A stretch of DNA of 39,579 bases. Origin: Candidatus Sungiibacteriota bacterium (lineage in GTDB: Bacteria > Patescibacteriota > Minisyncoccia > Sungbacterales > HO2-52-23). Under the pieces are notes generated by a model. That model was not told the origin of the DNA and made no database searches. It worked only from the letters and a program-made list of their open reading frames with translations. Shown piece by piece: positions 5,179 through 27,067 of this stretch; the first letter of the stretch is position 1; every line of letters starts with the position of its first letter. The position numbers and the translations under genes are program-made. The stretch spans positions 1-39,579 of the forward strand of contig JACPMG010000021.1 in the NCBI GenBank assembly GCA_016186095.1, in the 5' to 3' direction.

Positions 5179-5408
5179 AGGCCATAGTGGGATTTGCACC
5201 CACGAATAGCGGTTTTGTCCCGATGCCAAAATTTTGGAGGCCACGGGCGGAATCGAACCGCCGAATAGGAGTTTTGCAGACTCCTGCCTTAACCACTTGG
5301 CTACGTGGCCATACTCCAAAATTTTGGATCGGGATCCCGACTTCCTTATCTTATTTAATAATGGTGCGTCGGGACAGACCGCTGTGTTAGCTGCTTCACC
5401 ACAGCACC
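5179..5408 (-). pseudogene. Split, decayed tRNA-Cys enclosing an intact tRNA-Cys
   Basis: Minus strand. The 5' half (5408-5375) has a D-arm GTG...CAC and anticodon 5' strand GCGGTCTG. The 3' half (5217-5179) has CAAAACCGC, then CTATTCG and T-arm GTGGG...CCCAC. Joined, they give stem GCGGT/ACCGC with loop CTGCAAA, anticodon GCA, as in the inner gene. The 157-bp insert starts TCCCGA and ends TCGGGA. The copy is decayed: the T-loop is TGCAAAT and the acceptor strands GGTGCTG and TATGGCC have two mismatches plus two wobbles. Confidence 0.7.
5238..5310 (-). tRNA. tRNA-Cys (anticodon GCA)
   Basis: 73-nt cloverleaf: acceptor GGCCACG/CGTGGCC with discriminator T, as usual for Cys; anticodon stem GGAGT/ACTCC around loop CTGCAAA; T-arm GGCGG TTCGATT CCGCC. 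It is flanked on both sides by the palindrome CCAAAATTTTGGA (5226-5238 and 5316-5328) and lies inside the split tRNA-Cys remnant. Confidence 0.95.
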
Positions 5409-10597: not shown

Positions 10598-10669
10598 TGG
10601 GCACTGGGGGGATCGAACCCTCGACCTACTGTGTGTAAAACAGTCGCTCTACCACTGAGCTAAGTGCCC
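10598..10669 (-). tRNA. tRNA-Val (anticodon TAC)
   Basis: 72-nt cloverleaf: acceptor GGGCACT/AGTGCCC, discriminator A, anticodon stem ACTGT/ACAGT with loop TTTACAC (TAC). CCA is not encoded. On its 5' side lies a structured repeat region beginning with a truncated tRNA 5' end. Confidence 0.95.
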
Positions 10670-10906
10670 TTGTATATCTAACGGGGTGAATAAACGAGTT
10701 GCTGTTTCGCCCCCTCGGCGAAACCCAGAGAAATTTTTTACGCTCACACGTGCTTCGCACGGCTCGCTAAATTTCTCGCGAGAGCAAAGAAATTTGCTCT
10801 CGCCCAAGCCGACGTATTCTCCGACGGTGCCGTCGGAGTCCCGGTCGGCTCCCCGACTGCTCAATTATAAATTTTATAACGTGCGTCGGGGCTGAGCTAA
10901 ACGCCC
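10670..10906 (-). repeat. Truncated tRNA 5' end plus structured repeats before tRNA-Val(TAC)
   Basis: Minus strand 10906-10892 reads GGGCGTTTAGCTCAG, like the tRNA-Val(TAC) 5' end (13 of 15), and stops in the D-loop. It is followed by CCCCGACGCAC (10891-10881), a hairpin closed by GTCGGGG, further hairpins such as GACTCCGACGGCACCGTCGGAG-type stems, and the 102-bp element at 10704-10805. The same AGCTCAG-CCCCGACGCAC junction occurs at 22990-23007. Confidence 0.75.
10704..10805 (+). repeat. 102-bp covarying structured element, copy 1
   Basis: Aligns without gaps to 11630-11731; I count 83 of 102 identical positions. It contains hairpin GTTTCGCC/GGCGAAAC, an outer pair GAGAAATTT/AAATTTCTC, and the stem GCGAGAGCAAA/TTTGCTCTCGC. 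In copy 2 that last stem is GCACGAGCAAA/TTTGCTCGTGC, so two base pairs changed on both arms together. Confidence 0.85.
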
Positions 10907-10972
10907 TTATTCATGCGCCCATGAAGGATCGAACTTCAGACCTTTCGCATGTCAAGCGAACGCTCTACTTCA

Positions 10973-11073
10973 CCCCGCCACTTGGGCATGTGGGCAATAC
11001 AGGGATCGAACCTGTGGCCTTCACAATGTCAATGTGACGCTCTACCACTGAGCTAATTGCCCAAGTGGCGGGG
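10973..11073. repeat. 16-bp perfect inverted repeats framing tRNA-Val(GAC)
   Basis: CCCCGCCACTTGGGCA at 10973-10988 and its exact reverse complement at 11058-11073; the second arm overlaps the first bases of the inner tRNA. Confidence 0.9.
10991..11062 (-). tRNA. tRNA-Val (anticodon GAC)
   Basis: 72-nt cloverleaf: acceptor GGGCAAT/ATTGCCC, discriminator A, D-arm GCTCAGTGGTAGAGC, anticodon stem TCACA/TGTGA with loop TTGACAT (GAC), T-arm ACAGG TTCGATC CCTGT. It lies in the D-loop of a second, degenerate tRNA-Val with the same anticodon. Confidence 0.95.
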
Positions 11074-11094
11074 CAAGCTGAGCTAACCGCGCTC

Positions 11095-11331
11095 TTAAAA
11101 TAAATGCTTTTTCAAAAATGCTCTACCGGATCCTGATTTCAGATATTTTTCGAAATTAAAAGCTGTATATTTATTTTTGAATGCAAAGTAGCAAATTAGT
11201 TCGACTGGCAGTCGGTCTTTTGCCGCGGGGACCCTCCCACTACTATGTCTTACTAGTCGCTCTTGGATATCCTCGGTACAGCCGGTATACGGCAGACCAT
11301 CAATACAATTCAACAAGTAAACATAATGCAT
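11095..11331 (-). CDS. GIY-YIG nuclease domain protein in the tRNA cluster, 78 aa
   Basis: Single-domain GIY-YIG protein: HYVYLL...PYTGCTED, the Arg in QERLVRH, the Glu in NFEKYLKSGSGRAFL. A GGAGAG Shine-Dalgarno precedes the ATG. On the same strand it lies between the 3' end of the split tRNA-Glu (11397) and the 5' end of the split tRNA-Val (11092); its TAA stop ends two bases from that tRNA start, so it is very likely co-transcribed with the tRNAs. The family includes homing endonucleases, but stand-alone proteins this small have no assigned role. Confidence 0.88.
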   Translation of the reverse strand: MHYVYLLNCIDGLPYTGCTEDIQERLVRHSSGRVPAAKDRLPVELICYFAFKNKYTAFNFEKYLKSGSGRAFLKKHLF

Positions 11332-11396: not shown

Positions 11397-11475
11397 CGGC
11401 CCCACCGGGAATCGAACCCGCCTTCGCAGGCCGACACCCGCTTCGGCGGACGAAGGCCCGACTTGCCACATCTTG

Positions 11476-11611
11476 CCCCTCACTTAACTTCGATCATGCT
11501 TCGCCCCCAATGGGATTCGAACCCATGTACCGGGCTTGAAAAGCCCGTGTCCTGGGCCTCTAGACGATAGGGGCAGTATTTTATCTCATTTTTTCGAAGT
11601 TAAGTGAGGGG
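11476..11611. repeat. 18-bp perfect inverted repeats framing tRNA-Glu
   Basis: CCCCTCACTTAACTTCGA at 11476-11493 and its exact reverse complement at 11594-11611. The CCCTCACTTAAC core resembles the inverted repeat at 23237-23339. Confidence 0.9.
11502..11574 (-). tRNA. tRNA-Glu (anticodon TTC)
   Basis: 73-nt cloverleaf: acceptor GCCCCTA/TGGGGGC, discriminator G, anticodon stem CGGGC/GCCCG with loop TTTTCAA (TTC), T-arm ATGGG TTCGAAT CCCAT. Confidence 0.95.
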
Positions 11612-11629
11612 TGAAAAAGCGTGGCGTCC

Positions 11630-11731
11630 GTTTCGCCTCCTCGGCGAAACCCGGGGAAATCCTTAACGTTCGCATCTGCTCCGCACGGCTCACTAGATTT
11701 CCCGCACGAGCAAAGCAATTTGCTCGTGCCC
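11630..11731 (+). repeat. 102-bp covarying structured element, copy 2
   Basis: Gap-free homologue of 10704-10805. It starts one base from the 5' piece of the split tRNA-Glu. Stem GCACGAGCAAA/TTTGCTCGTGC shows paired changes relative to copy 1. Confidence 0.85.
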
Positions 11732-11800
11732 GCTAGACGATGGGGCCAAAATAGCTGATTTGCTTTTATAAGTTTATCAGAAACACGGAAAATTTCAATT

Positions 11801-15331: not shown

Positions 15332-15491
15332 ATTTTGCGGGATTCGTATAGTGGGCGAAAACTGAAGGCTTTCGCGGGAAATTTAGCGAGCCGGGGAACC
15401 CGCGCGAGCGTCAAAAATTTCCCGGGGGAGCGCTGACGGGAGCGCGACTAGCGAGCTTCCCAAGCCCAGTAAGACAACTTTGACAATACTT
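15332..15491 (+). repeat. Truncated tRNA-Gly 5' end plus structured repeats before tRNA-Gly
   Basis: GCGGGATTCGTATAGTGG (15337-15354) is a tRNA-Gly-like 5' end stopping in the D-loop. It is followed by hairpin GCGAAAACTGAAGGCTTTCGC, then an inverted copy of the core of the 102-bp element (15376-15423; outer arms GGGAAATTT/AAATTTCCC), the hairpin GCGCT...AGCGC, and CTTCCCAAG, which mimics the Gly(CCC) anticodon loop. The intact tRNA-Gly follows. Confidence 0.7.
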
Positions 15492-15563
15492 GCGGGCGTA
15501 GTTCAGCGGTAGAATGTCTGCTTCCCAAGCAGAAGATCGCCGGTTCGAATCCGGTCGCCCGCT
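15492..15563 (+). tRNA. tRNA-Gly (anticodon CCC)
   Basis: 72-nt cloverleaf: acceptor GCGGGCG/CGCCCGC, discriminator T, anticodon stem TCTGC/GCAGA with loop TTCCCAA (CCC), T-arm GCCGG TTCGAAT CCGGT. Confidence 0.95.
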
Positions 15564-22981: not shown

Positions 22982-23065
22982 GCCGGAGTAGCTCAGCCCC
23001 GACGCACTGCTGTATAATTTAAAAAGGTGAAGTCGGGGCTCCGACTAAACGTCGGAGCGGTAGAA

Positions 23066-23173
23066 CCTGCCCGCCATAGCCCGAGCCCCTTTAGTTCAGT
23101 GGCAGAACAGCGGTATCGTAAACCGCATACGTCAGTTCGATTCTGACAGGGGGCTAAGGCGATGGCAGGCGGG
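23066..23173. repeat. Inverted repeats framing tRNA-Thr
   Basis: CCTGCCCGCCATAGCC (23066-23081) and GGCGATGGCAGGCGGG (23158-23173) are complementary at 13 of 16 positions. Confidence 0.7.
23085..23155 (+). tRNA. tRNA-Thr (anticodon CGT)
   Basis: 71-nt cloverleaf: acceptor GCCCCTT/AGGGGGC, discriminator T, D-arm GTTC...GAAC, anticodon stem GCGGT/ACCGC with loop ATCGTAA (CGT), T-arm GTCAG TTCGATT CTGAC. Confidence 0.93.
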
Positions 23174-23236
23174 GCAACTCTTTCGTAAACATGTAAACAG
23201 TAGGTCGGTGGTTCAAATCCACTCTCCGGCTATTTC

Positions 23237-26551: not shown

Positions 26552-26558
26552 AAGTTAT

Positions 26559-26629
26559 TCCGGGGTCTGCTAATGGTAGGCATCGTGACTCTGAATCACG
26601 CAATCTTGGTTCGAATCCAAGCCCCGGAG
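26559..26629 (+). tRNA. tRNA-Gln (anticodon CTG)
   Basis: 71-nt cloverleaf: acceptor TCCGGGG/CCCCGGA, discriminator G, anticodon stem CGTGA/TCACG with loop CTCTGAA (CTG), T-arm CTTGG TTCGAAT CCAAG. The 3' end continues into the repeat GTCCTTCGACAAGCTCAGGA. Confidence 0.94.
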
Positions 26630-26667
26630 TCCTTCGACAAGCTCAGGACCCCCTAGTGAAAAATATT

Positions 26668-26940
26668 ATGTATTATGTCTATATTCTTCTTTGCGACCAG
26701 AAAACTTTTTATGTGGGAATGACGGATAATCTGGAAAGAAGATTATTGCAGCATCAAAGAAAAGAGTCCCCATATACCAAAAAGTTTTCTGAAGCTGTAG
26801 TTGTATACAAAGAGAATTTTACTAATTTTGTTAGTGCCGAAAATAGGGAACTGCAGCTGAAGAAATGGAGTATCGCAAAGAAGAAGGCTTTGATATCCGG
26901 TAATATAAATTTGTTACGTAGGTTAAGTAGGGGGTCCTGA
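26668..26940 (+). CDS. GIY-YIG nuclease domain protein, 90 aa
   Basis: Single-domain GIY-YIG protein: MYYVYILLCDQKTFYVGMTDN with Y-V-G as second motif, the Arg in LERRLLQH, the Glu in AENRELQLKKW. ATG 26668 is preferred over GTG 26656 because the family starts with M-Y-Y-V-Y. Its last codons and stop lie within the right inverted repeat of the unit. It lies between the intact tRNA-Gln and a shortened tRNA-Gln copy. Confidence 0.88.
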   Translation: MYYVYILLCDQKTFYVGMTDNLERRLLQHQRKESPYTKKFSEAVVVYKENFTNFVSAENRELQLKKWSIAKKKALISGNINLLRRLSRGS

Positions 26941-26955
26941 GATTGGCGATGATAG

Positions 26956-27006
26956 TCCGGGATGGGTGAAAATGGTGAGCTTGCCGAATCCATCCAAGTC
27001 CCGGAG
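26956..27006 (+). pseudogene. Shortened tRNA-Gln-like sequence, 51 nt
   Basis: Acceptor strands TCCGGGA (26956-26962) and TCCCGGA (26999-27005) plus G pair perfectly. A D-arm-like GGGTGAAAATGGTGAGC leads directly to a T-arm-like CCGAATCCATCC. The anticodon arm is missing. Confidence 0.6.
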
Positions 27007-27067
27007 TCCTTCGACAAGGCTACGGAATAGTAAATTATGCATTAGGATATAATAAATTCATCTTCTT

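Follow-up and report, generated by a model that had tools for sequence, protein, structure and literature searches.

In these ultra-small bacteria, working tRNA genes are found repeatedly within what is left of an older tRNA gene that served the same amino acid, and the pattern is systematic. The stretch of DNA analyzed here (the window) comprises positions 1 to 39,579 of the forward strand of contig JACPMG010000021.1, from a Candidatus Sungiibacteriota bacterium. It holds an intact tRNA-Glu gene enclosed in a broken one, and the tRNA genes for Val(GAC), Val(TAC), Thr(CGT), Cys and Gly(CCC) are arranged in the same manner.

The Broken tRNA-Glu Gene

The initial annotation described a dead, split tRNA-Glu-type gene around an intact tRNA-Glu. 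This is borne out, and the anatomy is larger than first described: 351 bp of the minus strand (11747-11397) contain one nearly whole tRNA-Glu-type gene, in pieces, with three unrelated hairpin inserts.

11730-11747, minus strand: outer tRNA-Glu, 5' piece with acceptor and D-arm to G18G19, GGCCCCATCGTCTAGCGG, matching the tRNA-Glu D-arm
11630-11729, minus strand: type-B element, 100 nt, three hairpins, in the outer D-loop immediately 3' of GG (homologues mainly in tRNA loops of relatives; fold z -4.7)
11612-11629, minus strand: outer tRNA-Glu, middle piece with D-stem 3' strand, anticodon 5' stem and loop, GGACGCCACGCTTTTTCA
11476-11611, minus strand: type-A cassette with an 18-bp perfect inverted repeat (CCCC..GGGG ends) and a whole tRNA inside
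11501-11575, minus strand: intact inner tRNA-Glu(TTC) (ARAGORN; Rfam RF00005, 60.3 bits)
11461-11475, minus strand: outer tRNA-Glu, anticodon 3' stem and variable region, CAAGATGTGGCAAGT
11421-11460, minus strand: palindromic repeat in the outer T-stem, opening with CGGG, which is repeated after the palindrome
11397-11420, minus strand: outer tRNA-Glu, T-arm, acceptor 3' strand and discriminator G

Both acceptor strands, GGCCCCA (11747-11741) and TGGGGCC (11404-11398), are present, as are the outer T-arm CGGGTTCGATTCCCGG and the discriminator G; the 7-bp acceptor match is weak evidence if taken alone. When the three inserts are removed, ARAGORN folds the outer gene into a cloverleaf whose acceptor stem is complete. 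Its rejoined anticodon loop has surplus bases and TTC is not readable there, and so the outer copy is dead. A Glu anticodon (TTC or CTC) had been expected, and TTTTTCA, the sequence at the split, is consistent with TTC.

The type-A cassette splits the outer gene in the anticodon loop. Its 18-bp inverted repeat (11476-11493/11594-11611) and the intact tRNA-Glu(TTC) were found as initially annotated, and so was an element between the outer pieces, which measures 100 nt (11729-11630) and not 102 bp. A palindrome had been thought to replace the outer anticodon arm. The arm is present, with its 5' side at 11629-11612 and its 3' side at 11475-11461, and the palindrome (11460-11421), standing between two CGGG copies, is a separate third insertion at the junction of variable loop and T-stem. 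Membership of the GGCCCC piece in an unrelated repeat was looked for as a refutation, which failed, while the suggested search of relatives for an unbroken counterpart recovered uninterrupted Glu(TTC) genes at the same locus, beside gatB and Val(GAC). The first reading had seen the two ends of the outer gene and overlooked its anticodon pieces, the other nests and the adjoining GIY-YIG gene.

Insert Families

Hairpins of several unrelated families are inserted in tRNA loops. Type-B copies stand at 14 places among the loci examined, for the most part in T/variable loops or after GG in the D-loops of tRNAs. D-loop inserts directly after TAGCTCAG are also found beyond the Sungbacteria-like genomes (L236, L241-L243). 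Cassettes typically end in CTTG(T)CCCC..GGGG(A)TGAAG or near variants, in both orientations and usually as long perfect inverted repeats. A short form, CTTGCCC-N(8-38)-GGGTGAAG, gave few matches across 113 relatives, so that the cassettes are mostly not of this form. Insert boundaries were drawn by hand; the ends are variable, and target duplications are clear in few cases only. With regard to a possible RNA insulator role of the inverted repeat, the outcome was mixed: scrambling the arms reduced native folding of the inner tRNA in the Ile and Met nests, and slightly in Tyr and Glu, and left it unchanged in Val and Thr.

Other Nests in the Window

10915-11092, minus strand: second nest, outer tRNA-Val(GAC) with its 5' piece at 11092-11078 and its 3' piece at 10967-10915
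10968-11077, minus strand: cassette CTTGCCCC..GGGGTGAAG in the outer Val(GAC) D-loop, carrying an intact tRNA-Val(GAC) (11062-10990)
10598-10906, minus strand: third nest, consisting of outer pieces GGGCGTTTAGCTCAG (10906-10892) and AGCAACTCGTTTA (10703-10691), a second type-B copy (10804-10704) and, downstream of the outer pieces, an intact tRNA-Val(TAC) (10669-10598)
22982-23232, plus strand: tRNA-Thr(CGT) (23084-23156) within an outer Thr (GCCGGAG..CTCCGGC)
5179-5408, minus strand: tRNA-Cys (5235-5310) within an outer Cys whose break is between positions 34 and 35
15337-15563, plus strand: tRNA-Gly(CCC) (15492-15563), accompanied by a type-B copy and outer 5' pieces

ARAGORN also calls a tRNA-Val(GAC) at 10915-10988 (29.8 bits), which overlaps the 3' piece of the outer Val and cassette sequence and is likely a false call. 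The Cys insertion site (34/35) was used independently in the relative G003. Some nests are old, since the relative G007 has the same left flank as the Gly(CCC) nest.

Survey of tRNA Genes

The survey covered 215 intact tRNAs, most of them from the window's genome (680 kb in 32 contigs) and four relatives, that is five Sungbacteria-like genomes, together with three extra loci. The regions read were the surroundings of tRNAs and search hits, and most of the genomes are incomplete assemblies. For each tRNA, the 5' part of a tRNA was sought in the left flank and the 3' part in the right, with reversed flanks and the opposite strand as controls. The outer Glu pieces scored 52 in this comparison, the control maxima being 41 (reversed flanks, 215 tRNAs) and 38 (opposite strand). 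Altogether 31 of the 215 are enclosed in, or adjoin, a broken tRNA copy that scores above every control, with both halves present in 26, and all 31 are co-oriented with the outer copy (none on the opposite strand). In 25 of the 31 nests the amino acid of the best-matching tRNA is also that of the inner tRNA (permuted mean 2.7, maximum 10 in 20,000 permutations); in the six others the expected amino acid is usually close behind. In 18 nests the best-matching tRNA agrees with the inner one in anticodon as well. Nests range from 14 in G003, where nearly all tRNAs bearing inverted repeats are nested, to none in G005, which is rated 100% complete. Layers accumulate, three being seen in the Gly of L084 and three in the Ser of G003. 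Assembly error is an unlikely source, because nests occur in independent assemblies, including the one-contig G003.

Resident and Incoming Copies

In 29 of the 31 nests the outer copy matches a tRNA of another genome better than the inner copy does, a best-of-many comparison that somewhat favors this outcome. The outer copy is the resident, and the inner one is of a different lineage. The Thr(CGT) gene near prfB is single and uninterrupted in G001, G005, G006, G008 and G011 (relatives' loci L164-L167 and L169) and nested in the window's genome, G004 and G007. Near gatB, L081 has intact genes for Glu(TTC), Val(GAC) and Val(TAC) one after the other, and Glu-Val is intact in G007. The outer Tyr of G003 rejoins to a perfect tRNA-Tyr, which is closest to the uninterrupted Tyr of the window's genome. 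Thr alleles have replaced each other both ways: the GCCGGAG type lies inside the GCCACCT type in G004 and G007, and the reverse is found in L084. G003, a single contig, has intact copies of nearly all isoacceptors, and therefore no broken copy needs to function. Displacement by insertion is well supported.

GIY-YIG Endonuclease Genes

11095-11331, minus strand: GIY-YIG endonuclease ORF of 78 aa that separates the Glu nest from the Val nest (PF01541, 41.9 bits; PDB relative 1zg2, UPF0213)
26558-27018, plus strand: tRNA-Gln(CTG) followed by a GIY-YIG gene (26656-26940) whose bounds are a 27-nt inverted repeat (85%) and a second copy, 27 bp long (96%), of the 3' end of tRNA-Gln

The second of these units looks like a complete element. 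As in free-standing homing elements, a GIY-YIG nuclease domain is encoded (PF01541), with matches above the cut-off at 11095-11331 and 26656-26940 of the window and in L044, L243 and L190. Such elements also lie next to their presumed target genes, and 12 of 23 small GIY-YIG genes in five genomes are within 500 bp of a tRNA, all on the strand of the tRNA (P about 5e-10). The other 11 were not found within that distance, some being at contig ends or on contigs without known tRNAs, and many nests have no GIY-YIG gene nearby.

Cassettes with tRNA cargo and with GIY-YIG cargo have identical ends in three cases. In G009, an element CTTGTCCCCCACCTAT..ATAGGTGGGGGATGAAG with a GIY-YIG gene occupies the D-loop of an outer Phe, which also encloses an intact Phe; the same ends carry tRNA-Ile and tRNA-Met instead in G003. 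The Ser nest of G003 has two GIY-YIG genes inside, and at the Asn of the window's genome a tRNA and a GIY-YIG gene lie between two copies of an Asn T-loop repeat. L253, which shares CCCCCACCTATCAAGG, has no GIY-YIG frame by eye.

At the contig end (45-284, plus strand) the window contains a GIY-YIG gene whose counterpart in G009 is located downstream of tRNA-Gly(CCC); the left end of the window probably adjoins tRNA-Gly. The gene was mobile recently: its product is 98.7% identical to that of G009 at the amino acid level, compared with 70% for prfB between the two genomes, and G007 lacks the gene at the Gly locus. This locus accordingly combines an element-free orthologous allele with recent horizontal spread.

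In G005 (L220, approximately 2050-2650) there are tandem Lys relics with a CCGTCAGCCGACGG palindrome, and a GIY-YIG gene lies between relic and intact Lys. Short ORFs that look HNH-like by eye are found beside tRNAs, after Tyr in L038 and before His in L059; one 40-aa piece was checked and gave no Pfam hit.

Origin of the Nests

We think it rather probable that cassettes bounded by hairpins and linked to GIY-YIG endonucleases invade tRNA genes and bring along a cognate tRNA as replacement, in a natural form of insert-and-rescue. From the linkage to tRNAs, the shared ends and the mobility we infer that the GIY-YIG enzymes would be the drivers. The endonuclease would cut the loops of a tRNA gene that lacks the element, and repair would copy the element in, with the endonuclease, the tRNA or both inside the inverted repeats. 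Because the target is essential, the survivors would be those insertions that bring a tRNA for the same amino acid in the same orientation, read from the same promoter. The endonuclease gene may later be lost, leaving the hairpin ends and the inner tRNA in place while the outer halves decay. At the Glu locus, a resident tRNA-Glu would have been invaded in its anticodon loop by a hairpin-bounded cassette with another complete tRNA-Glu(TTC); the inner gene would now do the work, and the dead outer one would have gained two further hairpin elements. The inserts need not all share one mechanism, since the type-B and palindromic inserts have no ORF. A fuller version of this proposal holds that the process is selfish and operates in bacterial chromosomes, tRNA-cutting GIY-YIG enzymes driving hairpin-ended elements that bring same-amino-acid replacements of different lineage, so that the tRNA set of such streamlined bacteria is overwritten repeatedly, layer in layer; for it we see about even chances.

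It is possible, if rather unlikely, that displacement by insertion is real and the cassettes move by hairpin transposition, RAYT-type transposases or transformation with short-homology repair, the GIY-YIG genes being unrelated hitch-hikers at tRNA loci. That most cassettes are without an ORF, that the loops are occupied by several unrelated hairpin families and that the genome encodes three RAYT-like Y1 transposases would all fit. The GIY-YIG-tRNA linkage, however, is far above chance, and the ends shared by tRNA-carrying and GIY-YIG-carrying cassettes in three cases also argue against it. RAYT as the mover was rejected, as the palindromes belonging to the three Y1_Tnp genes are unlike the elements in tRNA loops.

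It is very improbable that the inserts are introns, the outer tRNAs being spliced and functional and the inner ones intron-encoded. The anticodon loop does hold many of the inserts, in some cases precisely between positions 34 and 35, and their excision can restore a perfect tRNA, as in the Tyr of G003. However, as many as three unrelated inserts can be present in one tRNA, spread over D-, anticodon and T-loops, and a search of the window with Rfam gave no group I or group II intron core at gathering score. Mismatched acceptor stems or missing arms are seen in several outer copies, and inner and outer copies normally serve the same amino acid, which would make splicing redundant. The intron reading was rejected for the outer decay, the multiple unrelated inserts and the redundancy in the complete G003, with nearly all isoacceptors intact.

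Tandem duplication of tRNA genes followed by decay, with palindromic repeats inserted by chance, has very little probability. It would suit those relics that stand beside and not around the intact copy (L236, L243) and the few cases in which inner and outer copies are partly near identical (Asn of the window's genome, Thr of G007), but simple tandem duplication cannot yield the order 5' half, whole tRNA, 3' half that is seen in 26 of 31 nests, nor does it fit the nesting of nearly all repeat-bearing tRNAs of G003. Local duplication was rejected on the greater closeness of outer copies to the tRNAs of other genomes. Finally, it is hardly credible that a benefit to the cell drives the displacement, foreign tRNAs resisting tRNA-cutting toxins or phage systems and hairpins inactivating the old sensitive copy: anticodon loops are a favored target, tRNA-cutting defense is known and SegB-linked tRNA amplification aids evasion by phage T6 (PMC13096335), but D- and T-loops are also targeted, isoacceptors of all kinds are affected and the Thr alleles (GCCGGAG and GCCACCT types) were replaced in both directions.

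Relation to Known Systems

The nearest documented relative of the displacing elements is the phage enzyme SegB, a free-standing GIY-YIG homing endonuclease of T-even phages that cuts within tRNA genes at a T-loop-like motif, RAWTSGAAC (PMC13096335). It is frequently tRNA-linked across phages (PMC13096335) and is listed at tRNA-Arg/tRNA-Ile (PMC2988022). In both systems a small GIY-YIG gene lies among tRNA genes. SegB amplifies or spreads phage tRNA clusters, whereas the nests are in bacterial chromosomes and have the resident tRNA physically broken, with a same-amino-acid tRNA within it between inverted repeats. The rRNA genes of CPR bacteria contain LAGLIDADG and GIY-YIG insertions, and non-intron GIY-YIG and short ORF-less inserts occur at the tops or bases of stem-loops; tRNA is not mentioned in that work (PMC11270868). 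These inserts are in the same kind of bacteria and are likewise both non-intron GIY-YIG and ORF-less, but the target is rRNA and no replacement gene copy is brought.

Elements of the integrase type insert at the tRNA 3' end, restore the tRNA and have an integrase gene, whereas the inserts described here break the tRNA in its D-, anticodon and T-loops, the 27-bp tRNA-Gln 3' duplication of the window being a partial exception. In Allomyces mitochondria, a homing endonuclease gene (HEG) element contains a replacement for the 3' part of atp6, and mitochondrial double-hairpin elements are mobile hairpins of organelle genomes. The atp6 element similarly combines an endonuclease gene with replacement coding sequence in an essential gene, but it concerns a protein gene, fungal mitochondria and a partial replacement. 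Rickettsia palindromic elements are short palindromes found genome-wide, also inside genes. Short palindromes are similarly spread through genomes by REP/RAYT systems, but the RAYT palindromes of the window's genome differ from the tRNA-loop elements, and we know of no tRNA cargo or cognate replacement in either REP/RAYT or Rickettsia palindromes. No description of nested same-amino-acid tRNA displacement, or of such Sungbacteria tRNAs, was found in the open-licence PMC literature.

Disruptive insertions are usually considered no threat to essential tRNA genes that exist in a single copy. Here such genes are hit again and again, because the function that is lost is provided by the invader. If the proposed displacement is correct, it would be a natural counterpart of cleave-and-rescue gene drives and a route for horizontal tRNA replacement in minimal genomes, and it would explain tRNA relics and doubtful calls such as the tRNA-Val that ARAGORN places at 10915.

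Other tRNA Arrangements

Three tRNA-Pro genes (L040 at 5132, L045 at 7974 and L046 at 7634) have the same palindrome (..GCCCGYCGWAG..CGAAGG) abutting their first base, and so has the Pro(GGG) of G003. In addition to its dispersed set, G003 has a dense array of 21 tRNAs (C1, 439820-442718; L065), many with encoded CCA, which looks like a mobile or phage-type tRNA array.
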